A stretch of DNA of 19,052 nt, from assembly GCA_905372345.1 (NCBI GenBank), contig CAJPPE010000003.1, positions 1-19,052 of the forward strand. The letters run 5' to 3'. Below, piece by piece: positions 3,604 to 19,052 of the stretch. The first letter of the stretch is position 1; every line of letters starts with the position of its first letter. Under the pieces are notes generated by a model. It did no database searches and had not been told where the DNA came from. It saw only the letters and a list, made by a program, of their open reading frames with translations. A program made the position numbers and the translations under genes. This DNA comes from an uncultured Treponema sp. (GTDB taxonomy: Bacteria > Spirochaetota > Spirochaetia > Treponematales > Treponemataceae).

Positions 3604-3604
3604 A

Positions 3605-4429: not shown

Positions 4430-5179
4430 ATGAAAGATTCTATTATTAAAGGCATAAAACTTATCGGCGTTTTATGTATCGGTTTTGTTTTATTTGGAGC
4501 ATGCAGTCCTCAAGCAAGCGAAAAGCGTTTTGTAAGCGTTACAGGACGATCTTCTATTTCTAAATCTCCTGATCAGGTTTCAATTTCGTTTTCGGTTTTT
4601 TCTAAGGATAGGGACTTATCCGCGGCAAAAAAGAAAAATGATGCGGCAATTTTAAAATTAAAAGAGCTTTTTGAAAAATATAAAATCGAACAAAAAAATA
4701 TAAGTATTGAACGCATAAATATTAACCCTAGATCCAGATATAGAGACAATGGTGATGAATATTTTGACGGATATGAGGTGGTACAAAACATAGCCGTTCT
4801 TCTTACAAAGATAGAAGATTACGAAGTATTTTTAACCGACCTTTTAAATACGGGGGTAGATAGAATCTACAATGTAGGCTTTTCGGTTGCCGATATGAGA
4901 AAACTAATGGACGAGGCAAGGGCTGAGGCTGTAAAAGCAGCTGAAGAAAAAGCTCTCCTTCTTTGTAAGGCAGCCCCCAACGGCGGAAAATCCATTTCTT
5001 TAGGAAAAATAATCAGCATAAGCGAGGAACCTACAGGTATGTTCCAACGAAACTATTATAATTATGCTGCCCAAAATATGAAACAAGCCGCCGATTATGA
5101 GGCAGCAGGCGGAAATTTTTCTCCCATGGGACAGATTGAAGTTTCTGCGGAAATAAGCGTTGTCTTTGAATTAGAGTAG
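4430..5179 (+). CDS. SIMPL-domain (DUF541) lipoprotein
   Basis: A 249-residue exported protein. Seen: a lysine-containing N-terminus, a hydrophobic segment (about 11-24) and a Cys at residue 25 in the context LFGAC, a relaxed lipobox of the spirochaetal kind. The mature part carries the SIMPL/DUF541 pattern: FVSVTGRSSISKSPDQVSIS at the start, a long helix with LFEKYKI, a central YEVVQNIAVLLTKIEDYE, a helix rich in Ala/Glu (ARAEAVKAAEEKALLL), and a final beta strand (IEVSAEISVVFEL). Family members are periplasmic or outer-membrane-associated and mostly of unknown function; some are linked to oxidative stress. I chose the ATG at 4430 because GGAGG ends 5 nt before it; an in-frame TTG at 4409 has no ribosome site. 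It is a single gene, preceded by a terminator-like leader hairpin and followed by the permease promoter. Confidence 0.85.
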   Translation: MKDSIIKGIKLIGVLCIGFVLFGACSPQASEKRFVSVTGRSSISKSPDQVSISFSVFSKDRDLSAAKKKNDAAILKLKELFEKYKIEQKNISIERININPRSRYRDNGDEYFDGYEVVQNIAVLLTKIEDYEVFLTDLLNTGVDRIYNVGFSVADMRKLMDEARAEAVKAAEEKALLLCKAAPNGGKSISLGKIISISEEPTGMFQRNYYNYAAQNMKQAADYEAAGGNFSPMGQIEVSAEISVVFELE

Positions 5180-5215
5180 GTTTTTTAAATATTCATTTTT
5201 TGTTTTATTCCCCGA

Positions 5216-5244
5216 TTGACTGTCTTTTTATTTTGATGTAAACT
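5216..5244 (+). promoter_or_regulatory. Sigma-70 promoter of the permease gene
   Basis: TTGACT (5216-5221), 17-nt spacer, TAAACT (5239-5244). The predicted start point near 5251 leaves a short leader that contains AGGAG (5261-5265), 8 nt before the ATG. Confidence 0.62.
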
Positions 5245-5273
5245 GAGGTTAATTTTATAAAGGAGTTATTCTT

Positions 5274-6692
5274 ATGCAGAAAACGAATGAAGCAAAAAAA
5301 ATTTTCTGGTACACGTTGGCTTTTATGGCGTTTTCAACCGTCTGGAGTATGGGAAATATCATCAATGGATATTCCGAATACGGCGGATTGAAGGCCATAA
5401 TTTCATGGGTTTTAATTTTTTCAATTTATTTTATTCCTTATTCGCTTATGGTCGGTGAATTAGGTGCCACTTTTAAAAATTCCGGTGGAGGAGTGAGTTC
5501 GTGGATTGATGGTACAATCGGAAAAAAGATTGCATATTATGCTGGTTGGACTTATTGGGTTGTCCATATGCCGTATATTTCTCAAAAACCGTCAAGAGTG
5601 TTAATCTCATTTAGTTGGATGATTTTTCAGGATAAGAGTATAAGCAGTGCAAATATCACTATTCTATCTCTTGTTTCCTTAGTAATTTTCTTGGTTGTAT
5701 TATATTTGGCATCAAGAGGTGTTAACTTTATAAAGAAAGTTGCAACAGTTGCTGGTTCTTCAATGTTCATAATGTCAATTATGTTCATCTTTATGGCTAT
5801 CTCCGCTCCTTATATTACAGGTGCAAAGGTATTAAGCAATACTTATTCTTTAAAAACCTTTATGCCGGCATTTGATGTTAAATTCTTTACTTCACTGTCA
5901 ATTTTGGTTTTTGCCGTAGGCGGATGTGAAAAGATTTCTCCTTATGTAAATAAGATGAAAAATCCTTCAAAAGATTTTCCTAAGGGAATGATTTCTCTTG
6001 TAATAATGGTTTGTTTTACTGCAATTATTGGAACTTTTGCATTGTCATTAATGTTTGATACAAACAATGTTCCCAAAGATTTAATGACAAACGGAGCTTA
6101 TTACGCATTTGCAAAATTAGGAGAATATTACGGTCTCGGAAATTTCTTTATGATAGTGTACGCTATTGTAGATTTTTGCGGACAGATTTCGGTCATGGTT
6201 CTTTCAATTGATGCTCCTTTAAGAATATTACTTGAAAGTACTGATGATGAATTTATTCCTAAAACTTTGTTTAAGAAAAATAAGTTCGGCTCATACGTAA
6301 ACGGTCTTAAATTAATAGGTATAATAGTTTCTATTCTTATCATAATTCCGATATTTGGAATAAAACAAGTTGATGAATTGGTAAGATGGCTTGTAAAACT
6401 TAATTCAGTTTGTATGCCTCTTCGATACTTATGGGTATTTGTAGCTTATATTGCTCTTAAAAAACACGCTGAGAAATTTAATTCCGAATATTATCTTACA
6501 AAGAATAAAACTATCGGCTATATCTTAGGCGGCTGGTGCTTTTTCTTTACAGCATTTGCCTGTGTTTTGGGGATGTACTCTGAAACATCTCCATTCCAGA
6601 CAATATTGAATATCTGTACCCCAATCGTTTTAATAGTTTTAGGTCTAATAATGCCTACAATTGCAAAAAAACAAAGAGAGAACGTCAGGTAA
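5274..6692 (+). CDS. APC-superfamily amino-acid permease
   Basis: A 472-residue integral membrane protein with about twelve hydrophobic helices, the usual length and number for APC-type amino-acid transporters (the AA_permease_2 type that includes glutamate/GABA and arginine/agmatine antiporters). Seen: TM1 with SMGNIINGYSEYG at the expected broken helix, TM2 followed by GELGATFKNSGGGVSSWI and GKKIAYYAGWTYW, the central FAVGGCEKISPYVNKMKNPSKDFP resembling the TM6 substrate region and its following loop, and a basic C-terminus (KKQRENVR). The substrate cannot be told from sequence. It stands alone, with its own promoter and a strong terminator 27 nt after the stop codon. By eye its coding sequence is more AT-rich than its neighbours (many TTA, ATT, AAT, GTT), which could mean acquisition by transfer or simply the bias of a membrane protein. 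Confidence 0.85.
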   Translation: MQKTNEAKKIFWYTLAFMAFSTVWSMGNIINGYSEYGGLKAIISWVLIFSIYFIPYSLMVGELGATFKNSGGGVSSWIDGTIGKKIAYYAGWTYWVVHMPYISQKPSRVLISFSWMIFQDKSISSANITILSLVSLVIFLVVLYLASRGVNFIKKVATVAGSSMFIMSIMFIFMAISAPYITGAKVLSNTYSLKTFMPAFDVKFFTSLSILVFAVGGCEKISPYVNKMKNPSKDFPKGMISLVIMVCFTAIIGTFALSLMFDTNNVPKDLMTNGAYYAFAKLGEYYGLGNFFMIVYAIVDFCGQISVMVLSIDAPLRILLESTDDEFIPKTLFKKNKFGSYVNGLKLIGIIVSILIIIPIFGIKQVDELVRWLVKLNSVCMPLRYLWVFVAYIALKKHAEKFNSEYYLTKNKTIGYILGGWCFFFTAFACVLGMYSETSPFQTILNICTPIVLIVLGLIMPTIAKKQRENVR

Positions 6693-6718
6693 TAACAGCT
6701 GAATGTTTTAATTATTTT

Positions 6719-6755
6719 GCCGATGCTTTTTAACATTAAAGCATCGGCGTTTTTG
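6719..6755 (+). terminator. Rho-independent terminator after the permease gene
   Basis: A perfect 11-bp stem, GCCGATGCTTT (6719-6729) with AAAGCATCGGC (6738-6748), encloses an 8-nt loop and is followed by GTTTTTG. It separates the permease from the aspS promoter. Confidence 0.88.
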
Positions 6756-6802
6756 TTTATATTTGCTATTACATAATTTACGAAGTATTGATTTTTTCCC
6801 TA

Positions 6803-6831
6803 TTGCATAGCTTTTGCATTTTAACTATAAT
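6803..6831 (+). promoter_or_regulatory. Sigma-70 promoter of aspS, predicted leaderless
   Basis: TTGCAT (6803-6808), 17-nt spacer, perfect TATAAT (6826-6831). The expected start point (6837-6839) falls 1-3 nt before the aspS ATG at 6840, and no Shine-Dalgarno is present. Confidence 0.75.
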
Positions 6832-6839
6832 ATTCAATT

Positions 6840-8612
6840 ATGGAAAAAATGCAAAGAACCGTAACCTGCGGCGGATTAAATAAGGATTTTGCAGGAAAAA
6901 CTGTTGTTTTAAACGGCTGGATTCACCGAAAAAGGGATCACGGCGGTATTACTTTTTTAAATTTACGCGACCGTTACGGTTTAACTCAGGTAGTTGTGGA
7001 CGATGATGCAAGCGAAGAATTAAAAAACCTTGCAGTAAGCCTCAAGCAGGAATTCTGTATTGCCGTTGAAGGGCTTGTAAGGCCGCGCCCCGATTCTATG
7101 ATAAACAAAGAAATGGCAACCGGAGAAATCGAAGTTAAGGCCTTAAAGATTAAAGTGCTTTCAAAAAGTGAGGTGCTTCCTTTTCAGATTGACGAAAAAA
7201 CAAATGCAAACGAAGATTTACGGCTTAAATATAGGTATTTGGACTTGCGCTCAAAGGCAATGCAGGACCATATTATTTTGCGTTCAAAATTCGCCTTTGC
7301 TGTCCGCGAATTTTTAACTTCAAAAGATTTTTTGGAAATTGAAACCCCGACCTTTATTAAGTCCACGCCGGAAGGAGCCCGTGACTATCTGGTTCCATCC
7401 CGACTTTATCCGGGAAAATTCTATGCCCTACCCCAATCTCCGCAGATTTACAAGCAGATTTTAATGGTCTCCGGTTTTGATAAATATTTTCAGATTGCAC
7501 GCTGCTACCGCGACGAGGATGCCCGAGGCGACAGACAGCCCGAGTTTACTCAAATCGACCTTGAAATGAGCTTTGCTTCCCGCGAAGATGTTTTAAGCTT
7601 AACCGAAGGGATGATGCAGTATGCTTTTAAAAAGAGCATAAACGTAGACCTTCCGAAAACCTTTGAACGCATAAGCTATGACGAAGCTATCGATGTTTAC
7701 GGCACCGATAAGCCCGATCTCCGTTTTGAAATGAAGATGCAGGATGCAGCCTTTATGGCCGAAATCGGAAACTTTGCAGTATTTAAAGATGCTGTTTCTT
7801 CAGGCGGAGCCGTCAAGGCCTTGGTTGTAAAAGGACAGGCTGAAGCCTATAGCCGCAAAAAAATTGAAGAGCTTGAAGCCGCAGCCAAAATATACAAGGC
7901 TAAGGGCTTGGCTTGGATTAAGGTAACGGAAGGCGGTGCAAAACTTGAAGGAGGTATTTCCAAATTCTTTGAAGGAAAGGAAGCGGAAATTTGCTCAAAA
8001 CTCGGAGCCGAAAAAGGCGACTTAATTCTTTTTGTAGCCGATAAGTACAAGATTGCCTGTACAGCCTTGGGAGCCGTCAGAAGCAAGCTCGGAAAGGATT
8101 TAGGCCTTTTAAACCCTGCCGAATTTAAATTTGCTTGGATTGTGGACTTCCCCCTCTTTGAATGGAATGAGGAAGAAAACAAATGGGATCCGGCTCATCA
8201 CATGTTCTCGGCTCCTCAAGAAAAATATCTTGCAACAATGGAAGAAAATCCCGAACCCGTAAAAGGCGATCTTTATGACCTGGTCTTAAACGGATATGAG
8301 GTAGCCTCCGGCTCCATAAGAATCCATAATCCAGAACTGCAAAAGCGTATCTTTAAGATTGTCGGCTTTGATGAAAGCGAGGCGGAAAAGAAGTTCGGCT
8401 TTTTAACGGAAGCCTTTAAATACGGTGCCCCGCCCCACGGCGGCATTGCTCCGGGACTTGACCGCATAGTGATGATTATGGCAGGCGAAACATCGATAAA
8501 AGAAGTAATCGCCTTCCCTAAAAATTCCTTTGCAGTAAGCCCCATGGACGACAGCCCCAGCGAAGTAGACCAAAAGCAGCTGGACGAATTGCATTTGGCG
8601 ATTAAGGAATGA
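6840..8612 (+). CDS. aspS: Aspartyl-tRNA synthetase
   Basis: A 590-residue class II synthetase of the bacterial type, which charges tRNA-Asp in the cytoplasm. Seen in order: an N-terminal OB-fold anticodon domain (about 5-110, with LNGWIHRKRDHGGITFLNLR); motif 1 around 150-172 (ending FLEIETPTF); the motif 2 region TPEGARDYLVPSR to YKQILM and FQIARCYRDEDARGDRQPEF (about 177-236); a GAD insertion domain (about 290-420); and motif 3 GLDRIVMIMAG near the end. The length is normal. The start is either the ATG at 6840 or the ATG at 6849; neither has a ribosome site, and 6840 is preferred because the promoter places transcription initiation just before it. Counted from the second Met, His31 is the residue typical of non-discriminating AspRS, while position 83 is Ser. 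trpS follows after 7 nt, so they form an aminoacylation operon. Confidence 0.97.
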   Translation: MEKMQRTVTCGGLNKDFAGKTVVLNGWIHRKRDHGGITFLNLRDRYGLTQVVVDDDASEELKNLAVSLKQEFCIAVEGLVRPRPDSMINKEMATGEIEVKALKIKVLSKSEVLPFQIDEKTNANEDLRLKYRYLDLRSKAMQDHIILRSKFAFAVREFLTSKDFLEIETPTFIKSTPEGARDYLVPSRLYPGKFYALPQSPQIYKQILMVSGFDKYFQIARCYRDEDARGDRQPEFTQIDLEMSFASREDVLSLTEGMMQYAFKKSINVDLPKTFERISYDEAIDVYGTDKPDLRFEMKMQDAAFMAEIGNFAVFKDAVSSGGAVKALVVKGQAEAYSRKKIEELEAAAKIYKAKGLAWIKVTEGGAKLEGGISKFFEGKEAEICSKLGAEKGDLILFVADKYKIACTALGAVRSKLGKDLGLLNPAEFKFAWIVDFPLFEWNEEENKWDPAHHMFSAPQEKYLATMEENPEPVKGDLYDLVLNGYEVASGSIRIHNPELQKRIFKIVGFDESEAEKKFGFLTEAFKYGAPPHGGIAPGLDRIVMIMAGETSIKEVIAFPKNSFAVSPMDDSPSEVDQKQLDELHLAIKE

Positions 8613-8619
8613 GGCTTAA

Positions 8620-9693
8620 ATGAAAAACATTATTTTGACCGGGGATAGACCCACAGGAAAACTTCATATAGGGCACTATGTAGGCTCCTTAAAAAACAGG
8701 GTGGCTTTGCAGAATTCGGGCAAGTACGATGAAATTTATATTATGATTGCCGATGCGCAGGCTACAACCGACAATGCGGATAATCTTGAAAAAGTGCGTA
8801 CAAGCGTTATCGAAGTGGCTTTGGATTATCTTGCCTGCGGAATAGATCCTCAAAAATCGACAATCCTCGTGCAGACTCAAATCCCTGAACTTTGCGAGCT
8901 TACCTTTTATTATATGAATCTCGTTACCCTGGCCCGCCTTGAACGGAACCCTACAGTAAAAAATGAGATTAAGCTGAGAGGTTTTAACACAGGTGCCAAC
9001 GCCGGCGATAACACCGGTATCCCTGTAGGATTTTTAACCTACCCTATAAGTCAGGCTGCCGATATTACGGCTTTTTTGGCAAATACGGTTCCTGTAGGTG
9101 AAGACCAGATGCCGATGATTGAGCAAACGCGCGAGATAGTCCGCTCCTTTAATTCTCTTTACGGGGAAACCTTGGTAGAGCCCAAGGAGCTTTTGCCTGC
9201 AAACAAAACCTGCGGCCGGCTTCCCGGAACCGACGGAAAGGCTAAGATGAGTAAGTCGCTCGGCAACTGTATTTATATTTCGGACAGCCCCGAAGAAATC
9301 AAAAAGAAGGTAATGGGAATGTTTACAGACCCGAATCACCTCCGGATTGAAGACCCTGGAAAAGTTGAAGGAAATCCGGTATTTACCTATCTTGACGCTT
9401 TTGCCCAAAATGAGCACTTCCCTGAGTTTTGGAGCGATTATTCATGCTTGGATGAAGTTAAGGAACATTATCAAAAAGGCGGCCTAGGCGATGTTAAAAT
9501 TAAAAAATTCTTAAACAATATTTTACAGGAAGAACTAAAGCCCATCAGGGAAAAAAGAGAGACCTTTCAAAAAGACCTCCCTTCAGTTTATCAAATCCTG
9601 ATTGAAGGCTCAAAAAAAGCAAGGGAAAAAGCCGCAGCTACAACTCATTCTGTCCGCTCTGCAATGAAAATAAACTATTTTGAAGGAATGTGA
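8620..9693 (+). CDS. trpS: Tryptophanyl-tRNA synthetase
   Basis: A 357-residue class I synthetase that charges tRNA-Trp. Seen: the ATP-binding signature [10 protein letters not shown] at 11-20 (a true HIGH motif), a Rossmann core with [12 protein letters not shown] (42-52), the tryptophan-site region including [21 protein letters not shown] and PVGEDQMP (129-165), and the second ATP signature KMSKS at 209-213. The C-terminal helical part has [11 protein letters not shown], followed by a stretch ending in [16 protein letters not shown], usual for TrpRS. The length is at the upper end of the bacterial norm. The start is supported by GAGG 5 nt upstream. It is co-transcribed with aspS (7-nt gap). 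No strong terminator follows; only a 6-bp hairpin with one wobble pair is seen at 9697-9711. Confidence 0.97.
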
Positions 9694-9756
9694 CACATCG
9701 GCAAAGCTGATAACGAGTTTTAATTAAATAAAAACCGAAACATCTCCATTTTCCCC

Positions 9757-9785
9757 TTGAATTTTATGTGTTTATATGATAGTAT
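9757..9785 (+). promoter_or_regulatory. Candidate sigma-70 promoter for cheW
   Basis: TTGAAT (9757-9762), 17-nt spacer, TAGTAT (9780-9785). An alternative -10, TATGAT at 9775-9780, has poor spacing. The likely start is near 9792, leaving a leader of about 20 nt that carries GGAGGAAGGA (9796-9805). Confidence 0.5.
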
Positions 9786-9811
9786 TTTAAGTATTGGAGG
9801 AAGGAAACTAT

Positions 9812-10318
9812 ATGGCAAATACAGGAAGCCTTAATAAAAAGGCTAAAGTCGAAAATGATAACCTTTTAAAATTAGTTACATTCCAGCTCGGAGAAGAACT
9901 TTACGGTGTAGAAATTATGGATGTTTATCAAATAGTCAGGGTTCAAGATGTAAGACCTATTCCAAATGCTCCGTATTATGTTGAAGGAATTTTTAACCTA
10001 CGAAGCGAAATTATTCCGGTAATAAGTCTTCACAAGAGATTTCACATAAAAAAGGCTTCTTTAGATGAAGGCGATGAGTTTTTGGGCGGCTTTATAATCA
10101 TAAAGGTTGAAAACAACAAAATCGGTATTATAATCGATAGAGTAGCCCGTGTTGTTGACGTAAAAAAAGATGAAGTACAGCCTCCGCCCCAGATGATTGC
10201 AGGTATCGGAGCAGAATACATTAACGGCGTTGTCCGCCGAGATCCGGGGTACCTAATAATCTTGGATATTCACAGGCTATTTAATCCGAAAGAATTACAG
10301 AAGATTACGAATTTATAA
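9812..10318 (+). CDS. cheW: Chemotaxis coupling protein CheW
   Basis: A 168-residue protein. CheW links methyl-accepting receptors to the kinase CheA in polar signalling arrays. Seen: one CheW domain over nearly the whole length, with LVTFQLGEELYGVEIMDVYQ, IPNAPYYVEGIFNLRSEIIP, then a strand with LHKRFHI, and IGIIIDRVARVVDV before the closing LIILDIHRLF; these fit the two five-stranded beta-barrel subdomains. The N-terminal ~20 residues are polar and extended. I chose the ATG at 9812, with AAGGA 6 nt upstream; the in-frame TTG at 9794 lies upstream of the ribosome site itself. No receptor, CheA or flagellar gene is nearby, so this copy is placed apart from a chemotaxis operon. The next gene follows after 5 nt. 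Confidence 0.95.
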   Translation: MANTGSLNKKAKVENDNLLKLVTFQLGEELYGVEIMDVYQIVRVQDVRPIPNAPYYVEGIFNLRSEIIPVISLHKRFHIKKASLDEGDEFLGGFIIIKVENNKIGIIIDRVARVVDVKKDEVQPPPQMIAGIGAEYINGVVRRDPGYLIILDIHRLFNPKELQKITNL

Positions 10319-10323
10319 AAATT

Positions 10324-11349
10324 ATGAAAATACCCGTTTACAGTTCCACTATAAGACGCTCCGAAATGGATGCGGTTCTTACATGTATGGTCGAGGAAAA
10401 AATAGGCCCCGGCGAGATGAACCAAAAGCTTATCAAGCAGGTTTGCGAAACATTTCAAACAGCCGGAGCTGCTGCATTTAGAAGCCCGTCCATAGCTTTA
10501 AACTATGCTTTAAAGGCCTTAAATCTTGAAAACGGTTCATCGGTTATTATCTCAAGCCTTGCACCCTCGTGGCAATATGTAGAATTAAACCGCCAAGGGT
10601 ATAAGCCGATTGTGCTTGATGTAGAAGCAGATTCCGTTTTTCCTTCTTTTGAGAGCATTGAAAATGCGGTTCAAGCAGGCGGAAGAGTTCTTGTTCTACA
10701 TGAAACCTTGGGCTTTTTACCTGAGATGGAAAAGATATTAAGCTTAAACATTCCCGTAATAGAAGATATTTCTCAAAGTGCAGGAGCTGCCTATAAGGAA
10801 AAATATGCCGGCAGTATGGGAGTCTTTTCGATTTTGGGACTGGAAGAAAAGGATATTCTAACAGGTGGCGGCGGCGCCGTATTACTTGCTCCCGAAAGGC
10901 GGAATGCAATAGTTTTAAAAAAACTTTATGACGAATCCCCTCTTACGGACCAATTACCCGACATAAATGCGTCCTTAGCCTTTGTTCAGTTGAAGCAGAT
11001 GGCAAAAAACATGGAGCAGCGCAAGGAAATGCACGAGTCCTATATCCGCTCTTTGATGCAGGGAAAACATAAAACGATTGCTCAAAAAGAAGACACGGTA
11101 AATCCGGTTTATTCTTTTCCGGTTATTTTAAATTCCGGAGTTTCGGATGTGCAAAAATATGCGGCAAAAAAGGATATAGACATAGAGCTTGCTTTTAAAA
11201 ATTCTACCGTCGAATACTTAAAAGAAAGTCAAGAAAGTTTTATAAATGCATCTTCTCTTTTATTAAGATGTGTTCTTTTTCCTCTTTATCCGCGATTAGG
11301 TGCAAAAAAGTCGTCAGAGATTGCAAGAGTTTTAGCTACCCTGCCCTAA
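10324..11349 (+). CDS. Divergent DegT/DnrJ/EryC1-type PLP-dependent protein
   Basis: A 341-residue protein with the fold-type I pattern of sugar aminotransferases. Seen: GPGEMNQKLIKQV near 28-40 (compare the family's GPG...E), SPSIALNYALKALNL (54-68; compare SGTAALHLAL), VIEDISQSAGA (145-155; the PLP-binding Asp148 and Gln151), and Ser169 ... Lys176 followed by DILTGGGGAVLL, where Lys176 is at the right distance from the glycine run to be the Schiff-base lysine. The S-to-K segment is two residues longer than the family norm and the protein is shorter than the usual 360-400, so substrate choice or even activity may differ. No nucleotide-sugar genes lie nearby. It begins 5 nt after cheW without a clear ribosome site, suggesting translational coupling. 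Moderately sure of family, unsure of reaction. Confidence 0.75.
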   Translation: MKIPVYSSTIRRSEMDAVLTCMVEEKIGPGEMNQKLIKQVCETFQTAGAAAFRSPSIALNYALKALNLENGSSVIISSLAPSWQYVELNRQGYKPIVLDVEADSVFPSFESIENAVQAGGRVLVLHETLGFLPEMEKILSLNIPVIEDISQSAGAAYKEKYAGSMGVFSILGLEEKDILTGGGGAVLLAPERRNAIVLKKLYDESPLTDQLPDINASLAFVQLKQMAKNMEQRKEMHESYIRSLMQGKHKTIAQKEDTVNPVYSFPVILNSGVSDVQKYAAKKDIDIELAFKNSTVEYLKESQESFINASSLLLRCVLFPLYPRLGAKKSSEIARVLATLP

Positions 11350-11368
11350 TTTCTTTTATAAAATTAGG
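11345..11368 (+). repeat. Intercistronic inverted repeat overlapping a stop codon
   Basis: CCTAATTT (11345-11352) and AAATTAGG (11361-11368) form an 8-bp stem with an 8-nt loop. The left arm includes the TAA of the DegT-like gene. No T run follows, so it is not a convincing terminator; it may be an mRNA stability element or chance. Confidence 0.3.
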
Positions 11369-11390
11369 CCCGAGCTTTTAAGGAGAAATT

Positions 11391-12260
11391 TTGAAAAAAG
11401 CCCTTATAGTTTTAAGTATCGAAAAACCCAATGCAAAAAAGATTTGTAAAGAAATCGAAGCTTTTTTATCGGCAAAGGGAATCGATTCTTTTGTATATAA
11501 ATATGACGACATCTCCCATTCTCCCGAATTAAATGAAGACTATGACCTTGCAATAAGCCTTGGCGGAGACGGTACGGTTTTATTTACTGCCCGTTACAGT
11601 GCTCCGCGGCACATCCCCGTTTTTCCGATAAATTTAGGACGGTTCGGTTTTATAGCAAATATCGAACCTAAAGAATGGGAAGGAGAACTTTTACAGCTCT
11701 TAAACGGAAAACAAGCCTTACATAAAAGGATGCTCCTTTCAGCTTCGATAAAACGGAAAAATAAAGAAATTGTAAAATATGAAGCTTTAAATGATGCCGT
11801 TGTTTCCGGTTCGGGCATAGCAAAGCTGATAAACTTGGATATTTCCTTTAACGGAATTTCTTTCGGTGTTTTTAGAGCTGACGGGGTAATTGTTTCGACT
11901 CCTACAGGTTCAACTGCCTACTCGGCAGCTTCAGGAGGGCCGATCTTAGATCCTGATGTATCTGCATTTGTTTTAACCCCTATTTCTCCTTTTTCCTTAT
12001 CGAACCGCCCCTTGGTTCTTCCATCGTCGGGTCAAATGAAGATAAAAATTCTTCCTGCAAGAGTGAAAGATATTATAGTTTCAATTGACGGACAGGAGAT
12101 GGTTTCTTTACAAGAAGATGATGAGATTATAATAAGCGAATCTCCCAATAAGGTAAAAATGGCAGGCTGTTCTCCCGATAATTTTTACAAGGCCCTGCGC
12201 TCAAAGCTCGGCTGGTCTGGTTCTTCATCGCCTGCTGATTTGATGCAAAAATTGAATTGA
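11391..12260 (+). CDS. nadK: NAD kinase
   Basis: A 289-residue enzyme that phosphorylates NAD to NADP, the only route to NADP in most bacteria. Seen: LAISLGGDGTVLFTARY with the GGDG motif at 58-61, NLGRFGFIANI (81-91), EALNDAVVSG with the conserved Asn-Asp (134-135), DGVIVSTPTGSTAYSAASGG (164-183), and LTPISPFSLSNRPLVLP (195-211). Length and order are typical of bacterial PpnK/NadK. The start is a TTG at 11391 with AAGGAG ending 5 nt upstream, and the protein begins KKALIVLS as a Rossmann first strand should, so the TTG is well supported. It probably shares a transcript with cheW and the DegT-like gene. The product would supply NADP(H) for flavoproteins such as the one on the right side of the window, but no link is shown. 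Confidence 0.96.
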   Translation: MKKALIVLSIEKPNAKKICKEIEAFLSAKGIDSFVYKYDDISHSPELNEDYDLAISLGGDGTVLFTARYSAPRHIPVFPINLGRFGFIANIEPKEWEGELLQLLNGKQALHKRMLLSASIKRKNKEIVKYEALNDAVVSGSGIAKLINLDISFNGISFGVFRADGVIVSTPTGSTAYSAASGGPILDPDVSAFVLTPISPFSLSNRPLVLPSSGQMKIKILPARVKDIIVSIDGQEMVSLQEDDEIIISESPNKVKMAGCSPDNFYKALRSKLGWSGSSSPADLMQKLN

Positions 12261-12289
12261 TTGACATTTTATCCCCTTTATTGTATTAT
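12261..12289 (+). promoter_or_regulatory. Near-consensus sigma-70 promoter of the ABC-F gene, predicted leaderless
   Basis: A perfect TTGACA (12261-12266), 17-nt spacer, TATTAT (12284-12289). The -35 begins on the base after the nadK stop codon. The expected start point (12295-12297) is 1-3 nt before the ATG at 12298, and no Shine-Dalgarno is present. Confidence 0.82.
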
Positions 12290-12297
12290 GACAGCTT

Positions 12298-13950
12298 ATG
12301 ATTACAGTAAGCGATTTAAGTTTAAAGTTCGGCGACAGGCCGCTTTTTAAGGATGTTAATTTAAAATTTACAAAAGGCAACTGCTACGGAATTATCGGTG
12401 CAAACGGAGCCGGAAAGTCTACTTTTTTAAAAGTGCTTTCGGGAGAATTAGAGCATGACTCAGGTGAGTTCAGTATTACCCCCGGAGAGCGAATGGCTGT
12501 TTTAAGGCAGGATCACTTTGCCTTTGACGAATACAGTGTAAAAGACACGGTTTTTATGGGCTATCCTAAGCTCTACAATATTAGAAATGAAAGAGAAGCC
12601 ATTTATGCAAAAGAAAATTTTAGCGAAGAAGACGGAATAAGGGCTTCGGAATTGGAGGCCGAATTTGCAGATTTAAACGGCTGGGAAGCTGAAAATCAAA
12701 TAGAGCAGATTCTTTCAGGTTTGGGCCTTGATGAAAACTACCATGACAGAATGATGAGCGAACTGGATGAGGGACAGAAGGTGCGGGTTTTGCTGGCTCA
12801 GGCTATCTTCGGCACCCCCGATATTCTTCTTTTGGACGAACCTACAAACGGTTTAGACCTTGAATCCATAGCATGGCTTGAAGAGTTTTTAATAGACTTT
12901 CCCAATATTATAATTGTTGTTTCTCACGACAGACATTTTTTAAATACGGTTTGTACCCATGTCTGCGACATTGACTACGGAAAAATCCGCATGTATTCCG
13001 GTAACTACGATTTCTGGTACCAGATGAGCAGGATTATGCAAAGGCAGGCTAAGGACCAACAAAAGAAGCGAGAAGAAAAGATGAAGGATTTGAGGGAGTT
13101 TATCCTACGCTTTGCTTCAAATGCTGCAAAGAGTCGTCAGGCAACCAGCCGAAAAAAAGTTTATGATAAACTGGCCTTAGAAGAAATTGAAGTTACGAGC
13201 CGTAAATTCCCTTATGTCCATTTTAAGCCCAATAGGGAAATCGGAAACAATGTTGTCCGCACCGAAAAAATTTCTTATAAAACCCCCGACACTGCGGAAG
13301 AAAAGGGCATTCAGCTTTTAAGCGATTTTTCGTTTACGGTAAACAGAACTGATAAGATAGCCTTTGTAGGCCAAGAGCATAATTCAAAAACAGCCCTCTT
13401 TGATATTTTAACCGGAAAATTAAACCCCGATTCGGGAGATGTTTACTGGGGACAGACCGTATCCCATGCTTACCTTAATAAGGACAATGCCGAGTACTTT
13501 AATAACGATTTAAATATTACCGAATGGCTTAAACAATATTCCCCCGACCAAGATGATGCATATGTAAGAGGCTTTTTAGGCCGAATGCTTTTTTCGGGTG
13601 ATGAGTCCTTAAAGCCCGTAAATGTTCTATCCGGAGGCGAAAAGGTACGCTGTATATTGAGTAAGCTCATGCTTTCGGGAGCAAATGTTTTAATATTGGA
13701 TGAGCCGACAAACCATCTCGACCTTGAAGCTATTACGAGCTTAAATGATGCCCTTGTGGAATTCCCCGGTGTTATACTTTTTAACTCTCACGACCATGAA
13801 TTTATTTCTTCAATCGCAAATAGAATTATCGAAATTACCCCTAACGGCGTAATCGACAGGATGATGAATTTTGATGACTATATAAAAGATGAACAAGTCA
13901 AAAAGCTGCGTGAAGAATTATACGGCAACACCAAAAAGATGCAGATTTAA
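12298..13950 (+). CDS. ABC-F family ATPase, YbiT-like
   Basis: A 550-residue soluble protein with two ATP-binding cassettes and no membrane segments, the ABC-F layout (translation factors acting at the ribosomal E site). Domain 1: Walker A GANGAGKST (34-42), Walker B with D180-E181, H-loop His210. The linker at about 245-305 contains FASNAAKSRQATSRKK, as in YbiT/EttA-type proteins. Domain 2: signature LSGGEK (444-449), Walker B D468-E469, H-loop His498. Sequence such as VLRQDHFAF, LLAQAIF and VSHDRHFLNTVCTH closely follows E. coli YbiT. Two motifs are off: the first signature reads LDEGQK (156-161) and the second Walker A reads GQEHNSKT (358-365), lacking the glycine before Lys. These two belong to the same composite ATP site, so one site is intact and one degenerate. 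It is a single gene with its own promoter. Confidence 0.93.
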   Translation: MITVSDLSLKFGDRPLFKDVNLKFTKGNCYGIIGANGAGKSTFLKVLSGELEHDSGEFSITPGERMAVLRQDHFAFDEYSVKDTVFMGYPKLYNIRNEREAIYAKENFSEEDGIRASELEAEFADLNGWEAENQIEQILSGLGLDENYHDRMMSELDEGQKVRVLLAQAIFGTPDILLLDEPTNGLDLESIAWLEEFLIDFPNIIIVVSHDRHFLNTVCTHVCDIDYGKIRMYSGNYDFWYQMSRIMQRQAKDQQKKREEKMKDLREFILRFASNAAKSRQATSRKKVYDKLALEEIEVTSRKFPYVHFKPNREIGNNVVRTEKISYKTPDTAEEKGIQLLSDFSFTVNRTDKIAFVGQEHNSKTALFDILTGKLNPDSGDVYWGQTVSHAYLNKDNAEYFNNDLNITEWLKQYSPDQDDAYVRGFLGRMLFSGDESLKPVNVLSGGEKVRCILSKLMLSGANVLILDEPTNHLDLEAITSLNDALVEFPGVILFNSHDHEFISSIANRIIEITPNGVIDRMMNFDDYIKDEQVKKLREELYGNTKKMQI

Positions 13951-13958
13951 AAATCTGT
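13941..13958. terminator. Small hairpin between convergent genes
   Basis: CAGATT (13942-13947) and AATCTG (13952-13957) pair around a loop that contains the ABC-F stop codon. Read on the minus strand, a run of five T follows three bases after the stem, so it could end the hydrogenase transcript; on the plus strand there is no T run. It is short and AT-rich. Confidence 0.35.
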
Positions 13959-13965
13959 GCTATAA

Positions 13966-15756
13966 TTACGATTGAAATCTCTCGTTTATAACATAGCCCT
14001 TTCGATCCCGCTTTGGACTTCTCGGCATTTCCCATATAAAATGGTCCGTATGCAAAAGACTGTGAGCTTTATGACTGTTCGGCTTTTCAAAGAAGTTATT
14101 GTATAAATTCTTTATGTCCTCATTTTCATGCGAATATCTTAATTTTGAATTGCTGTCGATAAAATAAAGATTTTGGCCTCGTTCAAAGGCCAATTCAAAG
14201 CCGTCATGTATGGGCTGACCTCCACCTCCTACACAGCCGCCGGGGCAAGCCATAATTTCGACAAAATCATAATGCTTTTCTCCTGCTTCGATAGAATCTA
14301 TAAGCCGCCTTGTATTGGCAAGTCCGCTGGTCACGGCAACACTCAAATTATTCTCTTTTAGTGTAAAAGAAGCTTCAATAATTCCCGTCTCTTCTTGCGA
14401 AGAATGCCTTACAACTTTAAAAGCATCCGGCGGACAATTTTCTCCCATTATGGCATAATAGGCTGTACGCAAGGCCGCTTCCATAACACCGCCTGTAGCT
14501 CCGAAAATAATTCCCGCACCTGAAGCATCATGGAAAAGCTTATCAGGTTCCGTTTCTTTAAGGGTTTCGGGGAGAATATGAGCAGACTTAATCATCCTTA
14601 CAAATTCCCGCGTAGTCAAAACACAGTCCATATCATGTCCTGCATACTCGCCGTAGAAAAGCTCCATATTAATCTCGCCTTTTTTTGCAACACAGGGCAT
14701 AATTGCAACGGAAAAAATATCCTCAGGTCTTTTACCGATTGATTCAGCAAAATACGACTTCATAACCGCACCGAACATCTGCATGGGAGACTTAGCGGAA
14801 GATAAATGAGAAACCAAATGAGGATATTGGCTTTTTATAAAACGAACCCACCCCGGACAACAGGAGGTAAACATCGGTTTATCTTTTAGCTCTCCCTTAG
14901 AAAAACGCTCAAGGAATTCATAGGCTTCTTCCATTATGGTTAAGTCGGCCGAAAAACTTGTATCAAAAACATAGTCGGCTCCCATTCGTTTTAGGGCATC
15001 GAATATTTTGTTGACGGAAGCGTCTTTTAGATCAAGCCCTAAGTGTTCTCCCCAAGCCGTACGGATTGCAGGAGCCACTTGCACAACAACAACCTTATCA
15101 GGATCGGCAACTGCCCGCCAGAATTTTTCCGTGTCATCTCTTTCACGCAAGGCTCCTACAGGACAATGGGTAATACACTGACCGCATAGTGAGCAGTCTG
15201 CTTCGGCTATAGTCCTTGAGCCTGAAACATTTATTGTAGTTCTTGCTCCCGTTCCTTCCAATTCCCAGATATTAAGACCTTGAACTTTATCACAAACCTG
15301 AATACATCGCATACATTTAATACATTTTTTTGAATCCCGTATAAGAGGAAAATTTTTATCCCATGGCTGGTGTTCAAGCTGTTCTTCATATAATACATCT
15401 TGAATATTAAGATCGTTTGCAAGGGTTTGTAAGGAACAGTTTCCGCTTCTTACACAGGTTGCACACTTACAATCATGCTGAGACAAAATCATCTGAACGG
15501 TTCTTCTTCTGTCAAGCCTTACTTTTGGGCTATTGGTATACACAACCATCCCTTCTTCAACAGTGTTGTTACAAGCTGTTATAAGTTTTTCCTTTCCTTC
15601 CAGTTCAACAACACATACGCGGCATGCAGCAATTTCATTGATCCCCTTTAAAAAACAAAGTTTTGGTATAGGAATACCGGCCTGTGCCGCAGCTTCCATA
15701 ATTGTCATATCTTTATCAACATTTATTTTTATATTATCTATTGTTAAGTTTACCAT
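13966..15756 (-). CDS. hydA: [FeFe] hydrogenase catalytic subunit (group A, CpI-like)
   Basis: A 596-residue enzyme catalysing reversible 2H+ + 2e- to H2 in the cytoplasm (no signal peptide). Seen in order: an N-terminal [2Fe-2S] domain (Cys34, 45, 48, 62); a His-Cys3 [4Fe-4S] site (His94, Cys98, 101, 107); two [4Fe-4S] sets (Cys145/148/151/155 and 188/191/194/198); then the H-cluster motifs L1 TSCCPGW (297-303), L2 MPCVAKKGE (353-361) and L3 MACPGGCVGGGGQP (502-515). The cysteine spacing is nearly co-linear with Clostridium pasteurianum CpI, including the proton-relay Cys299. A ~40-residue C-terminal tail follows, with several His (SHKAHSLLHTDHF), and there is no extra C-terminal [2Fe-2S] as in T. 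maritima HydA. The start overlaps the upstream flavoprotein gene by 7 nt (ATGGTAA), and GGGAGGG lies 11 nt before it. The maturases HydE, HydF and HydG are not in the window. Confidence 0.95.
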   Translation of the reverse strand: MVNLTIDNIKINVDKDMTIMEAAAQAGIPIPKLCFLKGINEIAACRVCVVELEGKEKLITACNNTVEEGMVVYTNSPKVRLDRRRTVQMILSQHDCKCATCVRSGNCSLQTLANDLNIQDVLYEEQLEHQPWDKNFPLIRDSKKCIKCMRCIQVCDKVQGLNIWELEGTGARTTINVSGSRTIAEADCSLCGQCITHCPVGALRERDDTEKFWRAVADPDKVVVVQVAPAIRTAWGEHLGLDLKDASVNKIFDALKRMGADYVFDTSFSADLTIMEEAYEFLERFSKGELKDKPMFTSCCPGWVRFIKSQYPHLVSHLSSAKSPMQMFGAVMKSYFAESIGKRPEDIFSVAIMPCVAKKGEINMELFYGEYAGHDMDCVLTTREFVRMIKSAHILPETLKETEPDKLFHDASGAGIIFGATGGVMEAALRTAYYAIMGENCPPDAFKVVRHSSQEETGIIEASFTLKENNLSVAVTSGLANTRRLIDSIEAGEKHYDFVEIMACPGGCVGGGGQPIHDGFELAFERGQNLYFIDSNSKLRYSHENEDIKNLYNNFFEKPNSHKAHSLLHTDHFIWEMPRSPKRDRKGYVINERFQS

Positions 15757-17579
15757 AATCGTTCACGCCCTCCCTTAAATATTCCAAAGCCGAAGTGATC
15801 GCATTTAAGACAACGGTTCGATTCCTGACAAGCCTCTTTTTTACTCATACAGAACTCTACACCTTCAAAATCCTTAATCCTTTCTGAGGCTTCTCTTTCT
15901 CCAAGCTCAACCCTTCCGCAGGCAAGGCGGTCATCTATATTGGGAATGGGGATTTCTATATCACAGCTTATAGTGTGGCTGTAACCTAAATATTCGTCTA
16001 TATTTGCAGCCATAACCTTTCCTGCGGCAATGGCCTTTATAACTGTAGAAGGGCCTGAAGCACAATCCCCTCCTGAAAATAAGCCCGGCATTCCTTTAAA
16101 ACTTGCGCTGGGCATCGTAAAAAGCTTGCCCCTATCAATCGGTATACCTGCTTCTTCATAATGCTGAGTTTCGATATCCTGTCCTATTGCAACAACAAGC
16201 ACTTCACACGGAATAAAAATATTAGGTTCCCCCGTAGATACAACGGAGGCTCGGCCGTCTTTTATTTTGGAAATCATCTGGGGAGTAACCCAAACGCCTG
16301 TGAGTTTTCCATTCTTTACTTCGAGTTTTGAAGGAGCTTTTAGGGTCATCATTTCTACCCCTTCGGCTAAGGCTCCTTCTATTTCGGCAGGAAGAGCTGT
16401 CATATCGGCTACACGCCTTCGATAAAGACAGGTAACTTTTTCCGATTTTAGGCGGACAGCCGTCCGCACTGCATCCATAGCAACATTTCCGCCTCCTATT
16501 ATTGCAGTTTTTTTACCTGTTAAATCCATGCCCTTATCCATTCCTACATCCCTAAGAAATTGAACGGCAGAGATAACGCCTTCGGCATCTTCTCCTTCAA
16601 GGCCTAGTTTTTTGTCGGTTGAGGCTCCAATTGCTATAATAGCCGCATCATTATCTTTTATAAGCTCATTGAGTTCTATGTCGGTTCCTATTTTTTTACC
16701 GTAAACAACTTTAACTCCGGTTTCGAGAATTGCATTTATATCTTCGTCCAATCTATCCTTAGGAAGACGGTAATTAGGTATACCGTAACGGAGCATTCCT
16801 CCTAATTTGGGCAGCATTTCATATACGGTTGTCTGATGCCCCATGAGCTGTAAATAATAAGCCGCGGTGAGCCCTGCAGGACCGCCCCCGACTATGGCTA
16901 TAGTCTTTCCTGTAGAAGGGGCACATGGAGGGGGCGGAACTTTTCCGGAAAATTCAACGGCAACTCTTTTTAGTCCTCGTATATTTATGGCACTGTCTAC
17001 CATGTTTCGCCGGCACCTATGTTCGCAAGGATGTTCACAGATAAAGGCACATGTAGAAGGAAAAGGATTGTCCTTTCTGATAAGCCGGACGGCATCAGCA
17101 TACCTTTCATCCCTGACAAGGGCAATATAGCCCGGAATATCCACATTTGCAGGACAGAGGGCCACACAGGGTACGGGCTGAGTTGTTATACAGCCGCATC
17201 TTCCGTGTTTTATATGCTCTTCAAAGTCATCACGGCAATAGATTATGCTTTTATAAACCATATCGGCAGCTTCATATCCCAGAGCACAGTCAGCTGTCTC
17301 TCTTATCGACTTTGCAGTTTCTTCGATAAGTTTGATGGTTTCCATTTCAGCTTTTCCGTTTAGAACATCAGTTAAAATATGCTTTAACTGTAAAAGGCCG
17401 ATACGGCACGGCACACATTTTCCGCAAGTTTGGGCATGACACATTTCGATAAAGGCACGTGTTATGTAAACGGGACAAAGTCCGGGAGGACTCGCTTCAA
17501 TTCGATGTTGAAGATTCTCATACAGTTCTTCAATTATAATTTGAGACCGGTTTTGTGAAAATATCTCAAGTCGACTCAT
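15750..17579 (-). CDS. Fusion of a NuoF-type Fe-S domain with a GltD-like FAD/NAD(P)H oxidoreductase, hydrogenase partner
   Basis: A 609-residue cytoplasmic protein. N-terminal part (about 30-130): the NADH_4Fe-4S domain of NuoF/HydB, TCGKCVPCR with Cys52/55/58 and the distal Cys98 (DCALG); the FMN- and NADH-binding parts of NuoF are absent. Middle (about 138-200): a GltD-type Fe-S domain, ALCPANVDIPGYI followed by FICEHPCEHRCRR. Then an FAD Rossmann motif, IVGGGPAGLTAAYYL (about 229-243), a pyridine-nucleotide motif, IIGGGNVAMD, with downstream LYRRR (about 360-389) suggesting NADPH preference, and the closing FAD motif GLFSGGDCASGPSTVIKAIAAG. A short Cys tail (CQESNRCLKC) ends it. I chose the second Met (17577-17579) because AAGGAG is 7 nt upstream; the Met at 17585 would leave 1 nt. 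It is first in a two-gene operon with the hydrogenase, so it should feed electrons between NAD(P)H and that enzyme. Confidence 0.88.
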   Translation of the reverse strand: MSRLEIFSQNRSQIIIEELYENLQHRIEASPPGLCPVYITRAFIEMCHAQTCGKCVPCRIGLLQLKHILTDVLNGKAEMETIKLIEETAKSIRETADCALGYEAADMVYKSIIYCRDDFEEHIKHGRCGCITTQPVPCVALCPANVDIPGYIALVRDERYADAVRLIRKDNPFPSTCAFICEHPCEHRCRRNMVDSAINIRGLKRVAVEFSGKVPPPPCAPSTGKTIAIVGGGPAGLTAAYYLQLMGHQTTVYEMLPKLGGMLRYGIPNYRLPKDRLDEDINAILETGVKVVYGKKIGTDIELNELIKDNDAAIIAIGASTDKKLGLEGEDAEGVISAVQFLRDVGMDKGMDLTGKKTAIIGGGNVAMDAVRTAVRLKSEKVTCLYRRRVADMTALPAEIEGALAEGVEMMTLKAPSKLEVKNGKLTGVWVTPQMISKIKDGRASVVSTGEPNIFIPCEVLVVAIGQDIETQHYEEAGIPIDRGKLFTMPSASFKGMPGLFSGGDCASGPSTVIKAIAAGKVMAANIDEYLGYSHTISCDIEIPIPNIDDRLACGRVELGEREASERIKDFEGVEFCMSKKEACQESNRCLKCDHFGFGIFKGGRERLW

Positions 17580-17635
17580 TTGCATACTCCTTATGTCATA
17601 TATATTAACCTAAGTTGAATCCACTCTCATCTTTA

Positions 17636-17664
17636 ATTGTACAATATGTTTATTAAAATAGCAA
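17636..17664 (-). promoter_or_regulatory. Sigma-70 promoter of the hydrogenase operon with palindrome at the -10
   Basis: On the minus strand TTGCTA (17664-17659), 17-nt spacer, TACAAT (17641-17636). The predicted start is near 17629, giving a leader of about 50 nt. The -10 lies inside the perfect 10-bp palindrome ATTGTACAAT (17636-17645), a possible but unproven operator. Confidence 0.62.
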
Positions 17665-17705
17665 GTTTTAATTTGATAACTTTAGAATTTTTTTCTATAA
17701 ATTGT

Positions 17706-18797
17706 TTATTCTACAAGGCCGTACTTCATCGAATATATTAAAACCCTTATCGAAAGGCTGTCATCCTTGAGGTATTTTTTGATTCTTTCTTCGGCTCCTC
17801 TTTCCATGGCTTTAAGAATCATTTCCATCTTGTTTTCAACAAGATAGTTGAAGGCTTCTTCAGCCGTTAAAAAGGCATTGACCGTTTCGATTATTTTTTT
17901 TTCTGCCCCATGCATGGCAAGGTAGTAGACAAAGGCTTCCATGCGCGTGTCGGCGGTGCGGTTATGGGTGTTAAAAATGCCTATGGAAAGTTTAGCGAAT
18001 TTACCTATGTGTCCTAGTAAGGTCATGGTTTTAAAACCTTTAGAATAGGCATAGCTTAAACTATCCCCTATATAGTTTGAAATTTTTACGGTGGGAAGGT
18101 CTATTATAGTGTTTAGTTTTTCTTTAAGGCCTTCCCCGTAGTTTCCCGGCACCAAAAGTATTTCTTTTTTTTTCGAATTTTGTAATATTCCGTCTATTTC
18201 AAGGTAGATAGTTTTTTTGATGGCATCTTCGCTCATAGGATAGACTATGCCCTTTGTGCCGATAATAGAGATGCCGCCTTCAACACCGATATTTTTATTA
18301 AAGGTTTTTTTGCCGATTTCGGCTCCTTGAGGACTGAAAATTTCTACATTGAAACCCTTTTCTGAAACCTTTAAAACTTCTTTTTCTATCATTTGACGGG
18401 GTACGGGATTAATGGCAGCCTCCCCTACTTCTCCGAAAAGCCCTTTTTTGGTAATTCTTCCTATACCCTCTCCCCCGTCAATTAGAACCTTACCATCATT
18501 TCTATAAGAGACCCGAGCATGGATGTAGATGCCATCGGTGCTGTCCGGGTCGTCCCCCGCATCTTTTTGAACGGCGGCCTCTCCAATAGCTGTTCCGTCT
18601 TTGTCTTTATAGGAGCGGCAATGCTCTACCGGGAGGTCAAGGACAAGTCCTGCAGGCGTATCGATTTTAACCGAGGTCATAGTTTCACCGCCCAAAATCA
18701 AGGCCGCAGCCTTAGCCGCCGCCGCCGCACAGCTCCCCGTCGTATATCCGCATCTTAGCTTTTGTCCGTCTTTGTCGATATATAAATCCAGTTTCAT
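17706..18797 (-). CDS. cbiD: Cobalt-precorrin-5B C1-methyltransferase CbiD
   Basis: A 363-residue enzyme of the anaerobic cobalamin pathway, which methylates C-1 of cobalt-precorrin-5B using S-adenosylmethionine. Seen: the diagnostic N-terminal LRCGYTTGSCAAAAAKAAALIL (about 14-35), VKIDTPAGLVLDLPVEHC, DAGDDPDSTDGIYIHARV, GEGIGRITKKGLFGEVGEAAINPVP, and LLVPGNYGEGL (about 215-225) before a small central Gly-rich segment (MTLLGHIGKFAKLSIGIFNTHN) with TADTRMEAF. Length and order match CbiD. No other cobalamin gene is in the window, so it sits apart from a cbi operon here. The ATG at 18797 has no Shine-Dalgarno; an extended -10 box suggests a leader of about 6 nt. The hydrogenase operon follows 120 nt downstream on the same strand with its own promoter. 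Confidence 0.95.
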   Translation of the reverse strand: MKLDLYIDKDGQKLRCGYTTGSCAAAAAKAAALILGGETMTSVKIDTPAGLVLDLPVEHCRSYKDKDGTAIGEAAVQKDAGDDPDSTDGIYIHARVSYRNDGKVLIDGGEGIGRITKKGLFGEVGEAAINPVPRQMIEKEVLKVSEKGFNVEIFSPQGAEIGKKTFNKNIGVEGGISIIGTKGIVYPMSEDAIKKTIYLEIDGILQNSKKKEILLVPGNYGEGLKEKLNTIIDLPTVKISNYIGDSLSYAYSKGFKTMTLLGHIGKFAKLSIGIFNTHNRTADTRMEAFVYYLAMHGAEKKIIETVNAFLTAEEAFNYLVENKMEMILKAMERGAEERIKKYLKDDSLSIRVLIYSMKYGLVE

Positions 18798-18809
18798 TTT
18801 ATAGATAAG

Positions 18810-18818
18810 ATTATAGCA
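18810..18818 (-). promoter_or_regulatory. Extended -10 promoter of cbiD
   Basis: On the minus strand the sequence TGCTATAAT is a perfect extended -10 box, ending 12 nt before the cbiD ATG. The -35 region is poor (TTCTCT at 17-nt spacing), which extended -10 promoters tolerate. Transcription should start about 6 nt before the start codon. Confidence 0.5.
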
Positions 18819-18873
18819 TTAAAAATGGGTTTAGAGAAGATGAGAAAAATATAAAAGCTTTGGAACATTCTTA

Positions 18874-19052
18874 TCACAACCTCCTCAATACTCTCTGCTG
18901 CATGATAAAACCGATGAGTATCATTGTAAAATCAACGGCAGGAGCTGCCCACCATACGGCGAGGCTTCCGAATAAGTGCGGCAAAATCAGCATGGCGGGA
19001 ACAAAGAGGATGAGCTGACGCAAGAGGACAATCGCTCCGGCTTTTTTGGCAT
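18874..19052 (-). CDS. MATE-family efflux transporter (C-terminal 59 codons, partial)
   Basis: The reading frame enters from the right edge and stops at a TGA (18874-18876). It encodes AKKAGAIVLLRQLILFVPAM, then LILPHLFGSLAVWWAAPAVD, a last hydrophobic stretch FTMILIGFIM, and a basic end QQRVLRRL. The pattern of a Leu-Arg-Gln turn, a Pro-containing helix, 'LFG...VWWA.P..D' and a final helix is typical of helices 11-12 of MATE multidrug/Na+ antiporters. The ligand cannot be inferred. There is a 76-nt gap to cbiD with no clear terminator, so read-through into cbiD is possible alongside the cbiD promoter. Confidence 0.8.
   Translation of the reverse strand, partial: AKKAGAIVLLRQLILFVPAMLILPHLFGSLAVWWAAPAVDFTMILIGFIMQQRVLRRL

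Follow-up and report, generated by a model that had tools for sequence, protein, structure and literature searches.

A conserved two-gene [FeFe] hydrogenase locus in an uncultured Treponema joins HydA to a NuoF/GltD-type fusion flavoprotein of predicted NADP(H) specificity

We analysed a 19,052-nucleotide stretch of DNA from an uncultured Treponema sp. (assembly GCA_905372345.1, contig CAJPPE010000003.1, positions 1 to 19,052; hereafter the window), in which two genes on the reverse strand encode a flavoprotein and, overlapping it by 7 nt, the catalytic subunit of an [FeFe] hydrogenase, HydA (Table 1). A first-pass annotation of this DNA had placed both reading frames where we confirm them, and had described the flavoprotein as the Fe-S domain of NuoF, and nothing more of that subunit, joined to an entire GltD-like module. 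That description holds: the protein matches PF10589, Fer4_20 and Pyr_redox_2, the glycine-rich FMN motif of NuoF (searched as GxGGxGFP) was not found in it, and its match to the NuoF model TIGR01959 is confined to residues 37-125 (46.6 bits; cut-off 558.65). The fusion does pass the cut-off of NCBIfam NF009410 / PRK12771, ‘NAD(P)-binding protein’ (589.3 bits, cut-off 516, residues 92-595), so such proteins have already been grouped by NCBI, albeit under a functionless name and by a match that leaves out most of the NuoF-type domain.

Table 1. Features of the fusion–hydA locus in the window; residue numbers of the fusion follow its longest frame (611 aa, start 17585).
Feature	Positions	Strand	Remark
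Fusion flavoprotein gene (NuoF-type [4Fe-4S] domain + GltD-like FAD/NAD(P)H module)	15750..17579	-	609 aa, ATG 17579
NADH_4Fe-4S (PF10589; NuoF C-terminal Fe-S domain), residues 41-124	17214..17465	-	85 bits
Fer4_20, residues 132-212; two [4Fe-4S] expected	16950..17192	-	Pfam match
Lys206 codon	16968..16970	-	aligns with StnC Lys170; NfnB has Glu at the aligned place
Pyr_redox_2, residues 228-522; FAD and NAD(P)H Rossmann folds	16020..16904	-	Pfam match
C-terminal CLKC (Cys592, Cys595)	15801..15812	-	invariant
Overlap of fusion and hydA reading frames	15750..15756	-	7 nt
hydA, group A [FeFe] hydrogenase catalytic subunit	13966..15756	-	596 aa
N-terminal NuoG-like [2Fe-2S] domain of HydA (Fer2_4)	15529..15756	-	expected docking site for NuoF-type cluster
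H-cluster domain (PF02906) with TSCCPGW, MPCVAKKGE and EIMACPGGCVGGGGQP	14221..15096	-	305.7 bits
Fe_hyd_SSU domain	14038..14184	-	Pfam match
AAGGAG, likely ribosome-binding site of the fusion gene	17587..17592	-	7 nt before ATG 17579
Promoter-like site TTGCTA-17-TACAAT	17636..17664	-	candidate, weak evidence

The product of hydA contains, in order, the Pfam domains Fer2_4, NADH-G_4Fe-4S_3, a Fer4 pair, Fe_hyd_lg_C and Fe_hyd_SSU. It is a group A [FeFe] hydrogenase, its catalytic domain scoring above the TIGR02512 cut-off (444.6 bits; cut-off 405.95) with intact H-cluster motifs. The protein had initially been called CpI-like; its domain order agrees with that, but a CpI-like descent is rejected, because among solved chains the protein scores best against HydA1 from electron-bifurcating enzymes (8a6t_A, 523 bits; 7q4v_A, 495 bits), while the clostridial ‘Iron hydrogenase 1’ chains reach about 403-410 bits. 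Among 56 aligned HydA rows, which comprise the window and 55 of the 56 HydA proteins from the related loci described below (that of L003, 164 bits and at a contig end, was left out), the H-cluster motifs L1 and L2 and the core of L3 are present in 56/56, and the full L3 in 53/56. Both genes of the pair are under purifying selection: between the window and six genomes of its genus, dN/dS is 0.035-0.046 for the fusion and 0.033-0.082 for hydA, dS being near saturation for one of the six (G005).

The residues expected to carry electrons through the fusion are strikingly constant. In an alignment of 41 fusions, the NuoF-type ligands Cys54, 57, 60 and 100, the Fer4_20 residues Cys140, 144, 183, 187 and 191 together with Lys206, and the C-terminal Cys592 and Cys595 are each invariant (41/41), as are Arg273 and the YRRR segment formed by Tyr388, Arg389, Arg390 and Arg391. 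Seven cysteines and one other residue of the fusion would correspond to the NfnB ligand set for two clusters, going by the motifs given in PMC6405883. In NfnB, a cluster motif, Gx2ER, supplies a Glu ligand, and two conserved arginines bind the extra phosphate of NADP+ (PMC6405883). The latter pair probably has its counterpart in the YRR arginines of the fusion; the place of the former reads GLKR. In structure-chain comparisons the highest scores go to three large fused proteins, 9bov_A (331 bits), 8oh5_C (313), which we take as StnC by its length and domains, and 9n5u_A (307), each with Lys at the place equivalent to Lys206; the NfnB chains score lower (4ylf_B, 222 bits; 5jca_L, 216 bits). Furthermore, an RCLxC motif stands behind the GltD fold of StnC, near residue 566, as it does in the fusion; in NfnB it is at the N-terminus.

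A survey of gene neighbourhoods, which had been proposed as a check on the earlier reading, found the same arrangement repeatedly. Scanning species genome contigs for the fusion yielded 61 loci, 59 of them counted as real relatives; L060 and L061 were dropped as matches to the NuoF-type domain only (55.6 and 33.6 bits). Because the scan relied on short exact word matches, more distant relatives will be under-represented in this set. The hydA gene lies directly behind the fusion in 56/59 loci, the remaining three (L044, L050, L059) being cut by a contig edge; the GltD-type partner is accordingly upstream of hydA in 56/56, and in the 52 loci where at least 1 kb of sequence follows hydA, no second GltD-like open reading frame (ORF) was seen there. 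Among the 576 ORFs of the 59 loci there are no matches to HydC (NuoE), and the 59 matches of HydB type are every one a fusion. Nor is there a fixed third partner gene: clustering of neighbouring ORFs of at least 100 aa put the commonest other cluster in 16/59 loci. The named carriers, T. putidum (L030) excepted, are all Bacillota, mostly Lachnospiraceae; many gut and oral members of that phylum have the family. In a HydA tree of 64 rows, rooted at its midpoint and with three HydABC-type HydA serving as the distant group, seven treponemal sequences form one clade (support 100/100), nested in a 12-row clade (100/100) with two Peptoniphilus, Brotaphodocola, a Eubacteriales metagenome-assembled genome (MAG) and Catonella morbi; this clade is itself nested among Bacillota. 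Catonella is the nearest sister of the treponemal HydA with support of only 97/61. The topology suggests a single transfer of the pair from Bacillota into oral treponemes.

Within the genus we searched eight genomes (G001-G008) that do not include the window's own assembly; the nearest, G001, shares 35% of its sampled 31-mers, and close proteins in a large database are labelled Treponema denticola. The fusion is present in six of the eight, at 88-99% identity and with PF02906 adjoining, and is missing from G006 and G007. The NuoE-type domain PF01257 occurs in three (G005, G006, G007), and in G001-G004 and G008 the NADH_4Fe-4S domain occurs only once, inside the fusion. The pair therefore stands alone in 5/6 genus carriers, with neither NuoE nor a second NuoF-type Fe-S domain, which upholds the earlier view that it needs no such partners; routine co-occurrence with NuoE and NuoF, which would have spoken against that view, is not seen in these genomes, a full HydABC accompanying the pair in one carrier of six (G005). 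A PF01512 match was considered as a possible NuoF in G001, the sole genome searched for it, and was rejected: the one match is RnfC. Operons of the order HydC-HydB-HydA were found in G005, G006 and G007 (L109, L110 and L111); that G006 and G007 have HydABC without the pair, and G005 both, suggests that one type of hydrogenase has displaced the other.

Bearing in mind the Lys206/StnC match, the invariant ligands and YRRR, we consider it probable, though well short of assured, that the pair is a cytosolic two-subunit, non-bifurcating [FeFe] hydrogenase with NADP(H) as its redox partner. Cofactor, electron path, docking and direction are all inferred, as follows. NADPH would reduce the FAD of the GltD-like module, and single electrons would pass from FAD to the two Fer4_20 [4Fe-4S] clusters, with Lys206 acting as a ligand or modulator of the FAD-proximal one. 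From there they would reach the NuoF-type [4Fe-4S] cluster, which, by analogy with complex I, HydABC and Stn, may dock on the NuoG-like Fer2_4 domain of HydA; the [2Fe-2S] cluster of that domain would hand them to the further clusters of HydA and on to the H-cluster. We liken this to a HydABC-type enzyme in which the FMN/NADH domain of NuoF has been swapped for a GltD module and its Fe-S ‘plug’ retained. A path from NAD(P)H through FAD and Fe-S clusters to HydA had been proposed at the outset, as possibly NADPH-dependent; the invariant residues are consistent with it, and NADPH is the likelier donor over NADH. With potentials of -370 mV for NADP+/NADPH in anaerobes and -340 mV for H2 at 250 Pa (PMC6288185), it is feasible for NADPH to drive H2 formation when H2 is low, and for H2 to be taken up when it is high: the enzyme could dispose of NADPH as H2 in the first case and make NADPH in the second. 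A precedent, in the form of an NADH analogue, is HydAB of Syntrophus aciditrophicus, which when purified needs no ferredoxin to form H2 from NADH at 2.2-40.2 Pa (PMC7311640). Two published T. denticola arrays also count in favour of the reading: TDE1593 (‘Fe-hydrogenase’) and TDE1594 (labelled oxidoreductase or ‘glutamate synthase small subunit’), presumed from their product names to be the pair, co-vary both with P. intermedia (-1.70/-2.16; PMC3914990) and in a prtP mutant (+2.38/+2.41; PMC7586716). The accessible main text of the two papers does not mention TDE1592 or TDE1595, and the literature search turned up the locus tags in these two papers only.

Several known systems resemble the pair in part. 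In StnABC, too, the GltD module has a lysine at the FAD-proximal cluster, and NADPH electrons travel through NuoG/NuoF-type clusters; StnC, however, contains NuoG and inactive FdhF domains of its own and supplies the bifurcating, FMN-containing StnAB, whereas the pair's output is a hydrogenase and it has no FMN module, no StnAB module and no FdhF-like domain. S. aciditrophicus HydAB is likewise a two-subunit, ferredoxin-independent pyridine-nucleotide [FeFe] hydrogenase (PMC7311640), an activity that for our pair is predicted, but its beta subunit is a flavin NADH subunit likened to NADH:quinone oxidoreductases, not to GltD. HydABC of group A3 (8a6t, 7q4v) has the HydA closest by sequence and a HydB with the NuoF-type Fe-S domain; it differs in possessing the HydB FMN domain and HydC (NuoE), both absent from the pair, and in bifurcating between NADH and ferredoxin. 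NfnAB shares the GltD fold, NADPH, FAD and two [4Fe-4S] clusters, and differs in its Glu ligand, its bifurcating FAD, its partner NfnA and its lack of a hydrogenase.

The nearest named class is HydDB group A2, to which the locus had been provisionally referred, and whose role is given as ‘undetermined’ in PMC5037454; a 2025 paper still lists it as needing characterisation (PMC12578642). (In another scheme, ‘group A2’ means CpI; PMC9431212.) The likeness is real: a group A catalytic subunit adjoins a GltD-type protein, and there is no NuoF flavin domain. HydDB's printed rule, however, places the GltD-type gene downstream and excludes NuoF. Here the GltD-type gene is upstream and what lies downstream is a convergent ABC-F gene; the fusion moreover retains the C-terminal Fe-S domain of NuoF without the flavin domain. 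Because the gene order departs from that rule and the exclusion of NuoF can be read either way, we do not admit the pair to A2 and call it an A2-like variant. The same downstream rule would not assign the family to A2, and its default assignment to A1, the ferredoxin type, would distort surveys. No published biochemistry of the fusion + HydA arrangement emerged from a literature search that covered mainly papers outside subscription; the accessible parts of PMC13277313 and PMC4478896 hold nothing on it, and a term search of PMC8924675 was empty. GltD-linked hydrogenases still await characterisation (PMC5037454, PMC12578642), and the pair is a real, conserved and uncharacterised hydrogenase variant, predicted to be of NADP(H) type. 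The interest of so small a system is that the Fe-S domain of NuoF may serve in it as a transferable link, joining a hydrogenase to an NADPH module.

Several observations weigh against the assignment of the pair as a non-bifurcating NADP(H) hydrogenase. Cys37, 130, 179 and 460 are also invariant (41/41) and lie outside the ligand sets, which makes the cluster count unsure. At the place of StnC Cys114 the fusions have Ile (39/41) or Val (2/41), and NfnB has Ile; Arg273 (NfnB Arg201, StnC Arg239) is common to both types and so separates neither mechanism. Among NCBIfam models HydA fits NF040763 (‘NADH-dependent, group A6’) best, its 729.6 bits falling just short of the cut-off of 765, and the preference for NADPH is read from a motif. 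Finally, HydE, HydF and HydG were not found in any of the eight genus genomes, which leaves H2 activity in the treponemal host unproved.

This last point deserves expansion. Profile searches of the genus gave HydG in 0/8 genomes, HydE in 0/8, and HydF in 0/8 above the TIGR03918 cut-off, its weak matches being partial and to the GTPase domain; the two HydF candidates examined at such matches, frames of ~400 aa in G001 and G007, both proved to be HflX. The HydF-only domain PF18133 likewise has 44 matching genomes in the family, none of them from this genus. The HydG and HydF models do work in the family: HydG is above cut-off in 43/118 Treponemataceae genomes (48 with any match) and HydF in 44/118. 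PF02906 is found in 107 of these 118 genomes; each of the 44 with HydF also matches HydG, and every genome with a maturase has PF02906. By these counts, which cover HydF and HydG and not HydE, 59 of the 107 hydrogenase-bearing genomes have no match to either maturase, all eight genus genomes included; in 30 of the 59 the best hydrogenase match is strong and group A-like (E <= 1e-85), and 21 of these 30 are at least 90% complete. Among clostridial carriers of the pair, by comparison, HydE is above cut-off in 16 of the 20 examined (from 58 non-treponemal loci), the other four giving two weak matches and two none.

Either an unrecognised maturation route exists, or the treponemal proteins act without a complete H-cluster. 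Of the first we can speak only tentatively: it is possible, but we would not expect it, that functional [FeFe] hydrogenases are assembled without HydEFG in oral treponemes, and perhaps in roughly half of those Treponemataceae that bear hydrogenases, by an unknown or strongly diverged route, on which the A2-like pair, apparently an import from Bacillota, depends. The second would mean that the oral-treponeme pair no longer handles H2, its HydA lacking the 2Fe subcluster and the complex, as an Fe-S flavoprotein, either passing electrons from NADPH to some other acceptor or standing idle. We hold this to be unlikely. The missing maturases speak for it, as does R. rubrum, whose hydrogenases without maturases are held to be probably inactive or of different role (PMC4967309); yet the H-cluster motifs of the treponemal A2-like HydA are intact, the dN/dS of hydA is far from neutral drift, and the three HydABC-type HydA of the genus (L071, L077, L079) retain all motifs as well. 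The literature search found no mention of a maturase gap in Treponema. Should a member of the genus make H2, bacterial H-cluster assembly without the known HydEFG exists; should it make none, a conserved ‘hydrogenase’ does something else.

The first-pass annotation had also thought bifurcation with ferredoxin conceivable, such that the GltD module would split electrons from NADPH (or H2) between HydA and ferredoxin as the FAD of NfnB does. We now regard this as improbable. The fold is homologous to that of NfnB, Arg273 is conserved, and the Ile at the StnC Cys114 place is shared with NfnB; but Lys206 stands in all 41 fusions where NfnB has its Glu, the three best-matching chains all carry Lys there, the FAD of StnC, with its lysine at the FAD-proximal cluster, was concluded to be non-bifurcating (PMC10482914), and neither NuoE nor an FMN domain was found for a second branch (NfnA was not searched for). 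The sequence marks match the GltD site of StnC and not that of NfnB. Least probable is the suggestion made for A2 in PMC5037454, that it ‘may couple H2 oxidation to NAD reduction’ and so provide NAD(P)H as biosynthetic reductant for glutamate synthase: GltD homology accords with it, but the name stems from a domain common to many enzymes, no large subunit is present among 11 Pfam-scanned proteins of the window (GltB was not searched for genome-wide), and no third gene family accompanies the pair in more than 16/59 loci.

Other genes of these kinds were encountered alongside. A second PF02906 frame of 496-508 aa is present in four of the eight genus genomes (G001, G002, G003, G008); the G001 frame matches TIGR04105, the monomeric group B model, with 548 bits. 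All four group B copies (L080-L083) have TSCCPAY and CEGGCIGG and match L1 and the L3 core, and the L2 pattern is unmatched in 4/4. G007 has a further hydrogenase-like gene (L112:1344-4348; L084) of 593 aa, which scores 240 bits to TIGR04105, below cut-off, is without the L1, L2 and full L3 patterns and overlaps a 408-aa ORF by 4 nt; at a guess, it is possibly of sensory type. GltD-like frames about 35-37% identical to the GltD part of the fusion occur in all of G001-G008 at ~500-530 aa, and in G002, G003, G004 and G008 at ~920 aa. A Lachnospiraceae MAG carries a second, more distant fusion copy (L007:581-2431, reverse strand; 643 bits) with an adjoining HydA fragment at the contig end.

Elsewhere in the window, a protein of 749 aa encoded on the reverse strand (positions 1354-3603) matched nothing in Pfam at E <= 1e-5. 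The transcription unit of the pair had been described as bounded on both sides. Downstream this stands, with 15 nt between hydA and the end of the convergent ABC-F gene. On the upstream side a gap of 120 nt separates the fusion gene from cbiD, which has the same orientation, and the pair's own promoter is no more than a candidate, matching 9/12 consensus positions in a scan that gave 14 sites against 9.2 (sd 2.8) in shuffled sequence. The start of the fusion gene at 17579 is better than the longest-frame start at 17585, because Met3 is nearly invariant in the 41 homologues and AAGGAG lies 7 nt ahead of it.

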